Shown: one piece after another, positions 10,585-13,242 of the stretch | How the letters are laid out: each line of letters starts with the position of its first letter | Numbering within the stretch: the stretch's first letter is position 1 | Origin: an uncultured Alphaproteobacteria bacterium | GTDB lineage: Bacteria; Pseudomonadota; Alphaproteobacteria; HIMB59 | Length of the DNA stretch: 64,000 nucleotides | Direction: 5' to 3' | NCBI GenBank assembly: GCA_902616855.1 | Contig: CACMUL010000003.1 | Span: forward strand, 62,001 to 126,000 | The notes under the pieces: model-generated | Seen by the model: the letters and a program-made list of their open reading frames with translations, nothing else | Told to the model about the DNA's origin: nothing | Database searches by the model: none | Position numbers and translations under genes: made by a program

Positions 10585-10660
10585 TGGTGGAGCCAAGGGG
10601 GATCGAACCCCTGACCTCTACGCTGCCAGCGTAGCGCTCTCCCAGCTGAGCTATGGCCCC
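10585..10660 (-). tRNA. tRNA-Ala (anticodon GGC), CCA encoded
   Basis: On the minus strand the gene begins GGGGCCATAGCTCAGCTGGG and folds as a full cloverleaf. The acceptor GGGGCCA pairs with TGGCTCC. The anticodon arm CTACG-CTGGCAG-CGTAG gives anticodon GGC (Ala, GCC/GCU codons). The T arm contains GGTTCGATCC, the discriminator is A, and CCA is encoded at 10585-10587. A 52-base copy of its 5' part occurs at 12807-12858. The intact gene is therefore one end of an integrated element and its upstream DNA, including the promoter, is element-derived. Confidence 0.97.
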
Positions 10661-10711
10661 GACAGTTCGTTCACGCTTAATTCCTATGTTTTCCAAGCGT
10701 TATCAGACTTG

Positions 10712-10740
10712 ATTCTAGTATGCGCTGAATCCACAATCAA
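10712..10740 (-). promoter_or_regulatory. Probable promoter of tRNA-Ala, located inside the element
   Basis: Reading leftwards, a -35 TTGATT (10735-10740) and a -10 TAGAAT (10712-10717) are separated by exactly 17 bases. The transcript would start about 45 bases before the tRNA. Because this lies on the island side of the 52-bp repeat, the intact tRNA appears to be driven by element DNA. The -35 overlaps the edge of the 43-bp repeat by 3 bases. Confidence 0.5.
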
Positions 10741-10780
10741 TAGAAAAATAAATTTTTGTGATAACATTGTGATAACATTT
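10738..10780 (+). repeat. 43-bp direct repeat, left copy (candidate integrase arm site)
   Basis: This copy is identical to 12709-12751. It contains two head-to-tail copies of the 11-mer GTGATAACATT (10758-10768 and 10769-10779), so the element carries four copies in total. Tandem short boxes near an attachment core are typical of tyrosine-recombinase arm-binding sites. The function is inferred; the identity is directly seen. Confidence 0.85.
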
Positions 10781-10867
10781 CTTGTACCCATGCATGCGCC
10801 ATGGCAGGTGGTGTACCTTATATACCTGAGGTCATGCTAGAATATTCAAATTAGAGTTGAAAGCACT

Positions 10868-11077
10868 TTACTGAAATTGTTGTGCTCCAAGTCCAAATAA
10901 TATTATTGCCATGACTAACCAAAAGGCTGTCATAAATAAAATACCTATAACTCCCCAAAACTTTTTTTCAAAGCCAATCATGTCAGGGTTGTCTCTCATA
11001 GCTATGAATGCTCTAAATGGATAAACTAGCCCATATAGCAAAGAGAGTACTGCTCCAATAATTAATATCCAATGCAT
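10868..11077 (-). CDS. Small two-helix membrane protein carried by the element
   Basis: A 69-residue protein has helices 'WILIIGAVLSLLYGLVYPF' and 'FWGVIGILFMTAFWLVMAII' separated by a polar loop 'RAFIAMRDNPDMIGFEKK'. Amphipathic patterning and clean topology support coding. I recognise no named family. It is the only leftward gene inside the tRNA-Ala element and is separated from other cargo by the LysR remnant. Upstream spacing to an initiation signal is poor, so the start is uncertain. Confidence 0.6.
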   Translation of the reverse strand: MHWILIIGAVLSLLYGLVYPFRAFIAMRDNPDMIGFEKKFWGVIGILFMTAFWLVMAIILFGLGAQQFQ

Positions 11078-11161
11078 AGAATAATTTTAAAATATCTCAC
11101 ATATGTTTGAAAGTACTTCCTTAGATTCTAGTAGACTCCATATTTACTATTAAGGTTAAAA

Positions 11162-11455
11162 GTAGATAAGGTGGTAAAGTCCGCATCATCAACTCTAAAA
11201 CTTACCGCCTTATTAGATTATGAACTTATATGTACTAAGGATAATATTGAACATATTAGCTAAGTTAGGCCCGGGGCAGGGCTTGCTTTATTAGATGTAA
11301 ATATGATTGGGGATTTAACTAAAAATCAGCAGTTGATAAAAGTAAGTGATATTGAGTCTGTTGGGCCATATGCGTATTGGCTTGATATACCGCATGAAAA
11401 AATTGGTCAAAAGAAAATCTCTAACTTTTCGCTATGGCTAGAGAAAGAAGTTTAA
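11162..11455 (+). pseudogene. Remnant of a LysR-type (GcvA-like) transcriptional regulator, C-terminal part
   Basis: In one frame the region from about 11276 to the TAA at 11453 reads GAGLALLDVNMIGDLT, then VGPYAYWLDIPHEK and ISNFSLWLEKEV. This is the C-terminal end of the LysR effector-binding domain (GxGxALL..., then PYAYWL... and a final FxxWLxxE helix). The same frame upstream reads LTALLDYELICTKDNIEHIS and is interrupted by a TAA at 11261. No helix-turn-helix part is present. It is a decayed regulator, probably once controlling the neighbouring dehydrogenase. The left boundary is approximate. Confidence 0.7.
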
Positions 11456-11591
11456 AAGTCTATTTCGAAACGAGTCAAAAAGTGAATAAAATTCAACTAA
11501 ATTCATCTTAAAATCCCTCCAAATTTCTCAAAACTCTAATATGGAAATCTTTGAAATTCTAGTTTAAAAGTGAAAAAAAGGGGTTAGTAAT

Positions 11592-11702
11592 ATGAGTTTA
11601 TTAAAAGATCTAGTTTATATCATTAACGAATGGTTCTTATCTATTCGTCCTTTTTTTTCAATAAATCAAAAATCAATATGCCTGATAGGTGGGGGAAGCT
11701 AA
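11592..11702 (+). CDS. Possible 36-aa leader/small ORF upstream of the dehydrogenase
   Basis: ATG at 11592 opens 36 codons (MSLLKDLVYIINEWFLSIR... ending LIGGGS). The stop lies 1 base before the dehydrogenase ATG. An AAAGGGGTTAG stretch upstream could serve as a weak ribosome-binding site, and the end of the ORF contains the GGTGGGGG site of the next gene. That geometry would allow translational coupling. No similarity is recognised and it may be noncoding. Confidence 0.3.
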   Translation: MSLLKDLVYIINEWFLSIRPFFSINQKSICLIGGGS

Positions 11703-11703
11703 A

Positions 11704-12714
11704 ATGACAAATTCAAAAGTCATAGGAGTAATCGGCTTAGGGAATGCCGGATTACCAATCTTAAATAATTTAAATAAAACAAAAAAATATCAATTGATTG
11801 CTTATGATATTGATGAACATAAACTAAATCTTCTTCCTGAAAATATTACAAGAGCATCTTCTATTAAAGAGTTAGCTCAAAAATGTCATGCCACCATAAC
11901 TTGTTTGCCAAAACCTGAACACGTCTTGCAAGCTGTTGAAGGAAAAGAAGGGTTATTGGAAAATGCCTCACCAGGAATGGTTTGGATTGATACTTCTACT
12001 ACTGACTTTAAGCAATCTCAAGAATTAGAAAAAAAAGCATTAACCAATAATGTATCTATGTTAGAAGCTACTTTGACAGGAGGGGTTCATGCATTGCAAA
12101 ATAATAATATGGTAAGTTTAGCAGGAGGTAATAAAGAGATTTTTAATGAGTGGAAAGAATTAATACAAGATGCAATTGGTGAGGTTGTTGTACTTTGTGG
12201 AGATATCGGAGCAGGTGCGATTGCGAAGGTAGTTTCTAACATGCTTGCTTTCACTAATATGGTGGCAGCTTCGGAATGTATGATGATTGCAAAAAAAGCA
12301 GGCTTAGACTTAGAAAACTTTTTTGATGCCATCAGAGTTTCTGCTGGTAATTCATTTGCATGGGAAACTGTTGTGCCACATATTTTTAATCAAAAATATG
12401 AAGCGGGGTTCACAATGGACTTAGCATGTAAAGATATGAGGTTATGTTATTTATTAGGTGAGCATTTAAAAATTCCATTAGATTTACATATGGAAGTGAA
12501 AAAAAAGATGGAGAAAGCCAAATCTCAATATGGAGATAATGAAGGATGTTATGTATATCCACGAACTCTTGAAGATGAATTAAATGAGCCTTTATCTCTA
12601 AATGGATGGGATAATTGGGGTTATGACATAGAGGTAGTAGATGGCTCAATAGTTGTTAAACACAAGAATCGACCTGAGTCTAAACACCCTCAATACAACA
12701 CACAGTCACAATAG
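11704..12714 (+). CDS. NAD-binding 3-hydroxyacid dehydrogenase (3-hydroxyisobutyrate/tartronate-semialdehyde reductase family)
   Basis: This is a 336-residue beta-hydroxyacid dehydrogenase. It has a Rossmann loop 'GVIGLGNAGLPI' at the N-terminus, 'WIDTSTTD' near residue 95 and the substrate-binding 'EATLTGGVHALQ' near residue 118. The catalytic-lysine helix is 'GAGAIAKVVSNMLAF' near residue 173. These enzymes reduce or oxidise short 3-hydroxyacids with NAD(P). The ATG at 11704 follows a strong GGTGGGGGAAG site; the in-frame GTG 15 bases upstream would bury it. It is the main cargo of the tRNA-Ala element, and its last codons run into the right 43-bp repeat. The exact substrate is unknown. Confidence 0.9.
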   Translation: MTNSKVIGVIGLGNAGLPILNNLNKTKKYQLIAYDIDEHKLNLLPENITRASSIKELAQKCHATITCLPKPEHVLQAVEGKEGLLENASPGMVWIDTSTTDFKQSQELEKKALTNNVSMLEATLTGGVHALQNNNMVSLAGGNKEIFNEWKELIQDAIGEVVVLCGDIGAGAIAKVVSNMLAFTNMVAASECMMIAKKAGLDLENFFDAIRVSAGNSFAWETVVPHIFNQKYEAGFTMDLACKDMRLCYLLGEHLKIPLDLHMEVKKKMEKAKSQYGDNEGCYVYPRTLEDELNEPLSLNGWDNWGYDIEVVDGSIVVKHKNRPESKHPQYNTQSQ

Positions 12715-12751
12715 AAAAATAAATTTTTGTGATAACATTGTGATAACATTT
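12709..12751 (+). repeat. 43-bp direct repeat, right copy (candidate integrase arm site)
   Basis: Identical to 10738-10780, with tandem GTGATAACATT boxes at 12729-12739 and 12740-12750. It overlaps the last two codons of the dehydrogenase and lies 55 bases from the truncated tRNA-Ala copy. The order of repeat and tRNA copy is reversed relative to the left end, as expected if both flanked a single attachment core in a circular form. Confidence 0.85.
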
Positions 12752-12806
12752 TGACTTTGAAGAAGATTAAACTCTTATAAAGCCCAGAACTAAACGATTA
12801 AACAGA

Positions 12807-12858
12807 CCCTGACCTCTACGCTGCCAGCGTAGCGCTCTCCCAGCTGAGCTATGGCCCC
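12807..12858 (-). pseudogene. Truncated tRNA-Ala(GGC) copy, 5' 52 bases only (attachment-site duplicate)
   Basis: The minus strand reads GGGGCCATAGC... through the complete D and anticodon arms and the variable region, identical to the intact gene for 52 bases. It then diverges at the start of the T arm. The missing T arm and 3' acceptor strand make it non-functional. It lies 19 bases after the stop of the small gene at 12878-13132, so it may mark the original position of the tRNA 5' end. Confidence 0.93.
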
Positions 12859-12877
12859 ACAATTAGTTTATGCATTA

Positions 12878-13132
12878 TTACATTTTTTCTAATTTATATA
12901 CATCATCTACATTATTAAATTTGGCATCAAATTCCTTTGATCTTGGATCTTCAAACAATGCATAAAATTTATCCTCATCGGTGACATTTGCTACAATTAT
13001 CACTTTTCCATCTCTGACAAATCCCATCTCAAATCCATCAGTGTATTTTGCAATGTCATCTTTAAAAGACTCATATAATTTTAAGTAGTCCTCTTTAGTT
13101 CCGTTATAAGTAGATACAACACATAAATTCAT
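12878..13132 (-). CDS. Small conserved protein, possible ferredoxin-like fold
   Basis: An 84-residue soluble protein: MNLCVVSTYNGTKEDYLKLY, 'FEMGFVRDGKVIIVANVTDE', 'FYALFEDPRSKEFDAKF'. The beta-alpha-beta rhythm and length suggest a dimeric alpha/beta-barrel (ABM/DUF3764-like) fold, but there is no active-site signature. ATG at 13132 is preferred because GGGGGAA lies 6 bases upstream; the in-frame GTG at 13138 would sit on that site. It diverges from another small protein of the same apparent fold, and just beyond its stop lies the tRNA-Ala fragment. Confidence 0.72.
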   Translation of the reverse strand: MNLCVVSTYNGTKEDYLKLYESFKDDIAKYTDGFEMGFVRDGKVIIVANVTDEDKFYALFEDPRSKEFDAKFNNVDDVYKLEKM

Positions 13133-13242
13133 AATCACTTCCCCCTATATTGAACTATACTAATAGTCCAATTTTAGAGATCAATATCTTTTGAATGAAT
13201 AATTTCAAATAAATTTTATAATAATTTATAGAAAGGATAACT

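Follow-up and report, generated by a model that had tools for sequence, protein, structure and literature searches.

The gene for the alanine transfer RNA with anticodon GGC, tRNA-Ala(GGC), in a 64,000-nucleotide (nt) stretch of an uncultured alphaproteobacterium of the HIMB59 lineage (contig CACMUL010000003.1, positions 62,001 to 126,000; hereafter the window) is a hybrid, which owes its 5' half, its leader and its putative promoter to a small element lying directly upstream. I consider it highly probable that this element, at 10661-12858 of the window, integrated site-specifically into tRNA-Ala(GGC), and that the gene is a hotspot at which upstream ends have been replaced repeatedly across the genus. 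In the 52 genomes of the genus that were searched (a family-wide search gave the same 52), tRNA-Ala is present at 76/76 identity in 35, and four of these 35 intact loci have kept the ancestral upstream type. The source genome of the window, G000, comprises 1.13 Mb in 26 contigs and is 76% complete.

The hybrid gene and the polarity of its duplication

The intact gene, called by ARAGORN, shares an exact 52-nt repeat (D3, 100% identity) with a truncated copy 2.15 kb away, and this repeat covers nt 1-52 of the tRNA, the 5' part of the gene; that the duplicated part is the 5' half had been stated in the earlier note on this DNA. An exact duplication of this length is far beyond chance. As in tRNA-targeting islands, an intact tRNA gene and a displaced fragment in the same orientation flank the interval, and as in the 5'-half subclass of such islands the displaced fragment is a 5' part lying upstream of the intact gene. 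RNA folding of the tRNA added nothing (z -0.98). The features concerned are the following.

10585-10660, minus strand: intact hybrid tRNA-Ala(GGC) gene
10609-10660, minus strand: tRNA-proximal attachment core, comprising nt 1-52 of the tRNA (repeat D3)
10623-10629, minus strand: anticodon loop CTGGCAG (nt 32-38), putative 7-bp crossover region
10661-10711, minus strand: element-derived leader, from the putative promoter to the tRNA; elsewhere only in G048 (98% over 130 nt)
10712-10740, minus strand: putative promoter TTGATT-17-TAGAAT, identical in G048
12807-12858, minus strand: truncated tRNA-Ala, nt 1-52 (repeat D3), the distal attachment site
12859-12880, minus strand: former chromosomal sequence directly upstream of tRNA-Ala, same type as in G026, G021, G016 and G050
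12878-13138, minus strand: 86-amino-acid (aa) chromosomal neighbour gene

The polarity of the duplication follows from a comparison of the two upstream regions with those of relatives. The 500 nt that precede the truncated copy resemble the region in front of the tRNA-Ala gene of G026 (94% over 486 nt) and of G021 (82% over 274 nt). In G021 the downstream side of the tRNA matches as well (91% over 759 nt), so that both flanks of the element are found joined in G021, and the upstream flank in G026. The 86-aa neighbour gene, with its mid-point about 150 nt upstream of the tRNA, adjoins the tRNA in these two ancestral-type genomes (aa identity 99% in G026, 87% in G021). In contrast, the 500 nt upstream of the intact tRNA matched none of the four ancestral-type loci (G021, G026, G016 and G050), and the 140-nt end present there occurs in just two of the 52 genus genomes, G000 and G048. 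Because the old chromosomal upstream region now precedes the truncated copy, and the new one is absent from the ancestral-type loci, the 5' half and leader of the intact tRNA come from the element, while the truncated copy retains the former chromosomal upstream DNA. Both points had been proposed in the earlier note, and the observation that it named as speaking against them, element-free relatives carrying the sequence of 10661-10740 upstream of tRNA-Ala, was not made in any of the four ancestral-type loci.

The reverse order, in which the truncated copy would have arrived by insertion and 10661-10740 would be what originally stood upstream on the chromosome, is contradicted by these matches of the two upstream regions and by the restriction of the 140-nt end to two genomes; I found nothing in its favour and regard it as extremely improbable. 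Just as little credence can be given to an artefact of single-cell amplification or assembly at the junction. It is true that many of the relatives are single-cell genomes (uncultured marine Alphaproteobacteria, AG- isolates), which are prone to amplification chimeras, and this counts against site-specific integration as an explanation; however, G048 has the same end with different cargo at 1-2% divergence, and the architecture recurs in G032 and G033.

Ends and cargo of the element

The interior of the element and its ends contain the following features.

10738-10780: 43-bp repeat, proximal copy, with tandem TGTTATCACAA 11 bp apart and a 22-mer at 10756-10777 (minus strand); putative integrase arm sites
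10868-11077, minus strand: hydrophobic 69-aa open reading frame (ORF) without family match, co-directional with the tRNA
11171-11455, plus strand: fragmented reading frames (ORFs of 30 and 50 aa in the ORF list)
11689-12714, plus strand: main cargo, a 341-aa NAD-binding dehydrogenase of the 3-hydroxyisobutyrate/2-hydroxy-3-oxopropionate type (PF03446, 1.8e-29; PF14833, 3.8e-28)
12709-12751: 43-bp repeat, distal copy, with the 22-mer at 12727-12748 (minus strand)

The exact 43-bp direct repeat lies just inside both ends, and direct repeats with 11-bp phasing on both sides of a core are the arrangement of a lambda-like attP; judged by its 11-bp-spaced motifs, the repeat looks like a pair of predicted integrase arm sites. 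Among 162 genomes of the order the arm 22-mer is confined to G000 and G048, with two copies in each. Proximal-end tandem repeats 11 bp apart are found at six of the 13 loci listed (G000, G048, G032, G049, G011 and G007).

Four genomes have truncated copies, which comprise nt 1-38 in G048 (perfect to nt 38, or 42 nt with one mismatch), nt 1-40 in G033, nt 1-41 in G032 and nt 1-52 in G000. The anticodon occupies nt 34-36, and nt 38, at which the shortest perfect copy stops, is the final base of the anticodon loop. Since the copies end at nt 38-52, the crossover may have been a 7-bp exchange within the anticodon loop, which would be compatible with all four.

An integrase was expected at 11689-12714 and was ruled out, as this ORF encodes the dehydrogenase (the top NCBIfam model, NF008592, scores under its cut-off). 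No integrase gene is present in the 2.15-kb interval, for which reason I call the element cargo-only or derelict. The whole G000 genome has one PF00589 match, which is located on a different contig. It falls in a 329-aa frame with counterparts throughout the genus, probably a Xer protein. The fragmented frames at 11171-11455 resemble, by eye, what I take to be the C-terminal part of a LysR-type regulator.

An integrase does accompany the related arrangement in G032, where a 4.6-kb element encodes a tyrosine recombinase (PF00589, 6.6e-19) whose gene starts at a distance of 100 nt from the 5' end of the tRNA and is oriented away from it, with the truncated copy 4.6 kb upstream. Between recombinase and tRNA lie CGTCGGTAA repeats 11 bp apart, and a related pair is seen by eye near the distal copy. 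The G048 element shares the end of the window element (206 nt including the tRNA, 99.0%) and carries a different cargo, which encodes a DUF2130 and an HNH-HIT protein; its four scanned ORFs include no integrase, and a search of the whole G048 genome gave one PF00589 place, on another contig. The same ends with different cargo in G048 and G000 are what would be expected of elements moved in trans. The search for an autonomous partner found the 140-bp end (52 genus genomes) and the arm 22-mer (162 order genomes) confined to these two genomes. As for a phage or viral source, the exact 38-nt core had no matches in viral contigs, and the G032 integrase no relative there. A further copy of the arm repeat lies within the G048 element (G048:C2:17259-17280), about 1.1 kb from the proximal one, which suggests a composite of two elements.

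On the element side the earlier note had also placed a promoter, TTGATT-17-TAGAAT. The site is indeed present, at 10740-10712 on the minus strand, with nine of 12 consensus matches. That it is a working promoter of the tRNA is plausible, but the promoter search found one site where the shuffled region averages 1.0, which is the level of chance, and the ancestral-type upstream regions are likewise without a clear sigma-70 promoter; both observations weaken the view that the element drives the tRNA. The consensus score was dropped as proof of promoter strength, as 25% of background windows score at least 8.5.

Diversity of upstream ends across the genus

The intact tRNA-Ala loci fall into eleven upstream types, whose names T1-T11 (with T5 split into a and b) are those of this analysis.

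T1, ancestral: G016, G021, G026, G050
T2: G000, G048
T3: G010, G011, G015
T4: G020, G038, G047
T5a: G032; T5b: G014, G017, G034, G036, G044
T6: six genomes; T7: five genomes; T8: three genomes
T9: G007; T10: G001; T11: G006

Types T2-T4 have TATCACAA-like motifs in common and T5-T9 have CGG-containing motifs in common, which gives coarse counts of eight loci for T2-T4, 21 for T5-T9, four ancestral and two unclassified. In most of T5-T9 a module that resembles a promoter, of the type TTGAAC-16-TATTAT, ends 19-20 nt ahead of the tRNA.

The upstream regions of two other tRNA genes are less diverse. The last 110 nt upstream of tRNA-Ala form 12 clusters in 34 genomes with a mean identity of 0.66, and positions -45 to -1 of the 35 intact genes form 10, whereas the same clustering gives a single cluster with a mean identity of 0.94 for tRNA-Leu(CAA) and two clusters for tRNA-Met, in which three genomes are replaced (G012, G013 and G038); these controls are the best 30 loci each of the full-length matches. 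In the 22 genomes common to the Ala and Leu sets, 10 upstream clusters stand against one. A locus tree was built from 11 flanking proteins for 25 of the 35 genomes (more than 150 aligned residues), and parsimony on its 25 tips requires at least 17 changes with the 12 fine types and at least 10 with five coarse groups, minima that are unchanged when only branches with support of at least 0.9 are used. Within the close cluster the tree is poorly resolved (10 of 22 supports below 0.9). For the fine types, 17 changes compare with a mean of 18.6 for shuffled labels (121 of 1000 shuffles at or below), and for the coarse types, whose 10 changes are equalled or undercut by all 1000 shuffles, there is no phylogenetic signal. 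Because of this poor resolution and the missing signal of the coarse types, I claim only lower bounds on the number of type changes.

Traces of successive insertions are seen upstream of the truncated copies, which are preceded by ancestral sequence in G000, by a T7-type end in G048, by a T3-type end in G032 and by CGG-repeat-like sequence in G033. Three of the four thus follow non-ancestral, element-like ends, and by this likeness they are stacked insertions. Decayed copies remain in G013 and G047 (19 nt perfect in each), and G011 has a weak relic (24/38, against 18 for the reversed-query control). The five T5b genomes have about 0.1 kb between the flanking chromosomal 91-aa gene and the tRNA, and eight T6/T7 genomes retain an insert of about 0.43 kb. 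I rejected the reading of these T6/T7 inserts as eroded ends, as the 0.43 kb holds a 107-aa gene that is seen elsewhere (similarity, by eye); they appear to be inserts of a single gene in which no distal tRNA copy can be recognised. In G039 another locus (G039:C6:69456-69526) has, preceded by a T8-like element end, a further full-length but degenerate sequence that resembles tRNA-Ala (88% over nt 1-74), possibly an off-site insertion or a moved gene.

Several observations weigh against site-specific integration as the source of this diversity. Full truncated copies occur at only three of the 34 loci with usable upstream sequence, and 28 of the 34, four of them ancestral, show no recognisable copy within the up to 6 kb searched; because the copies are mostly not found, integration is concluded from likeness for most non-ancestral ends. 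No integrase-bearing element with the end type of the window was found with the arm 22-mer in the 162 order genomes, several ends (for example in G034 and G038) have one arm motif and not two, the arm phasing of T6 and T7 was judged by eye, and G001 and G006 are without recognisable element features. Moreover, over 430 nt T6 and T7 agree at 93-96%, with most of their differences in arm and leader, which points to homologous recombination or local change besides integration. As T6 and T7 differ mainly in arm and leader, and a dehydrogenase stretch is common to G000 and G039 despite different ends, sequence comparison argues clearly for a contribution of homologous replacement to the upstream diversity.

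Homologous recombination between the flanks could even be the main source of the diversity, with the tRNA as a passive anchor and site-specific integration an occasional event. To the near identity of the T6 and T7 ends and the truncated copies missing at most loci one may add that window positions 11368-12717 recur at 99.4% identity in G039, at the same site but next to another proximal end, and that the types on the locus tree resemble shuffled labels. However, it would leave aside that four genomes have exact tRNA 5' fragments which stop at nt 38-52, that repeats phased at 11 bp lie at both ends, that an integrase adjoins the tRNA in G032 and that the upstream region of tRNA-Leu is conserved as one type in the same genomes; I hold it to be a minority possibility. 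A different doubt concerns transcription, as the tRNA might be read through from the 69-aa ORF or other upstream DNA and not from TTGATT-TAGAAT. The ORF is co-directional and 207 nt upstream of the tRNA, and the predicted promoter is at chance level; however, the end that G000 has in common with G048 reaches no further than 130 nt from the tRNA and so does not include the ORF, and T5-T9 retain a -10-like hexamer about 19-22 nt before the tRNA, which makes read-through unlikely.

On the preferred reading of site-specific integration, the element at 10661-12858 would have entered tRNA-Ala(GGC) by site-specific recombination, most likely through a tyrosine recombinase, with the exchange in the anticodon loop. 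The attachment site of the element would have combined the 5' half of the tRNA, at least nt 1-38, with an upstream region of the element's own, and integration would have severed the chromosomal 5' half, now at 12807-12858 with the old promoter, while the 5' strand up to the crossover, the leader and the promoter of the rebuilt gene would be element DNA. The integrase-less element was probably mobilised in trans, with the 11-bp-phased end repeats serving as integrase arm sites. Related and unrelated elements with upstream ends of their own would have displaced each other many times at this gene, and the ends left behind would drive the tRNA once the cargo is gone.

Similar arrangements exist at other tRNA genes of the genus. 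At tRNA-Met, G038 carries an element of the 5'-half kind (G038:C11:3256-10224, about 6.9 kb), in which a recombinase adjoins the 5' end of the tRNA and nt 1-40 are present as a truncated copy; the upstream region of this tRNA is replaced in G012, G013 and G038, the genomes named above. In G051:C1 and G003:C4 two complete, identical tRNA-Gly(GCC) genes lie about 6.1 kb apart with a recombinase between them, beside one 5' end; on its other side the G003 locus carries a 3' fragment (nt 25-75) as well. The usual 3' fragments are found in G029 and G046 (tRNA-Thr and tRNA-Arg). A tRNA-Met-like sequence with anticodon CTT in place of CAT and without its first nine nt lies beside a recombinase in G050 (G050:C2:59041-59110), 3.3 kb from the intact tRNA-Met. 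In PMC10872708 (legend of Fig. 4F) an additive island is described with a recurring 20-bp repeat, given as the end of tRNA-Lys(ctt); reverse-complemented, this repeat reads to me like a tRNA 5' end, and it may be another array of 5'-half elements.

Viability, known systems and meaning

The further suggestion, that an essential tRNA driven by an incoming promoter ties cell viability to the element, is not supported. A tRNA-Ala(TGC) exists in the genus: G000:C14:2152-2220, a 77% match to tRNA-Ala(GGC), is taken as this gene, the equivalent match in G039 having the anticodon TGC. All 10 genus genomes that are at least 90% complete match tRNA-Ala(GGC). Of 12 sister-family genomes (89-96% complete, searched at E ≤ 0.1), six gave only tRNA-Ala(TGC), one (G155) tRNA-Ala(GGC), two another match and three nothing; the GGC gene thus appears to be missing in most of these genomes of the same order and seems dispensable in related lineages. 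Because tRNA-Ala(TGC) is present and only G155 of the 12 showed the GGC gene, the essentiality of tRNA-Ala(GGC) is doubtful; in addition, the tRNA would regain its old promoter on precise excision. Retention of part of the end, as the earlier note allowed, is compatible with the ends of about 0.1 kb in T5b, whereas keeping the whole element is not required.

Integration into a tRNA 5' half is known but rare, and the mechanism of its polarity is known as well. A protein-coding counterpart is SXT at the 5' end of prfC, which gives its host gene a new promoter and 5' end; unlike the small element at a tRNA gene described here, SXT is a large conjugative element. The Islander collection contains 159 islands with a 5' tDNA fragment out of 3919, against 3760 with a 3' fragment, and its filters demand an integrase gene in the island (PMC4383910). 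The window element resembles these 5' islands, in which a tyrosine-integrase island splits a tRNA gene and displaces its 5' part; it differs in having no integrase, and repeated promoter exchange at one tRNA is not found in the sections of PMC4383910 at hand. A rebuilt bacterial tRNA is said to keep its original promoter 'with very few exceptions', the archaeal exception being the pTN3-like elements of Thermococcales, in which the rebuilt tRNA is expressed from the integrase promoter (review PMC8371274). These integrases share the attB polarity, with the 5' part displaced (PMC8371274, PMC5495485), but they are archaeal and their gene is split on integration, whereas here the host is bacterial, the attachment site lies beside the integrase start in G032 and the window element has no integrase. 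In tRNA-dependent lysogeny, too, the host tRNA supply depends on incoming DNA with its own promoter (PMC10865867); there, however, a whole phage tRNA complements, whereas here a hybrid gene is rebuilt and a dependence of viability is not supported. Tycheposons and other tRNA-bordered islands of streamlined aquatic bacteria have tRNA-anchored cargo and a tyrosine recombinase in common with the elements of this genus. As described in PMC10872708, tycheposons combine a recombinase and a tRNA border in 4-200 kbp, unlike the window element, which at 2.15 kb is cargo-only, has no recombinase and uses the 5' half.

What is new is the repeated replacement of the promoter at a single bacterial tRNA throughout a genus, in part by cargo-only elements that have no integrase; it was not found in the literature searched (promoter exchange, tycheposons, HIMB59 islands), the coverage of which is partial. 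A tentative extension, which I think is rather doubtful, is a 'promoter roulette', in which 5'-half-targeting and partly integrase-less mini-elements compete for one tRNA, each bringing promoter and leader of its own. Vertical descent should leave a tRNA gene with its promoter, and here 76 nt are identical in 35 genomes with the ancestral upstream region in four. The locus therefore offers a natural experiment on the importance of tRNA promoters and on the limits to host range that arise from a half-tRNA in the attachment site, and it bears on the movement of integrase-less elements between streamlined ocean bacteria. If such a roulette is at work, host tRNA expression would be a trait that is exchanged horizontally and open to selection, differing between otherwise near-identical cells within one marine population.
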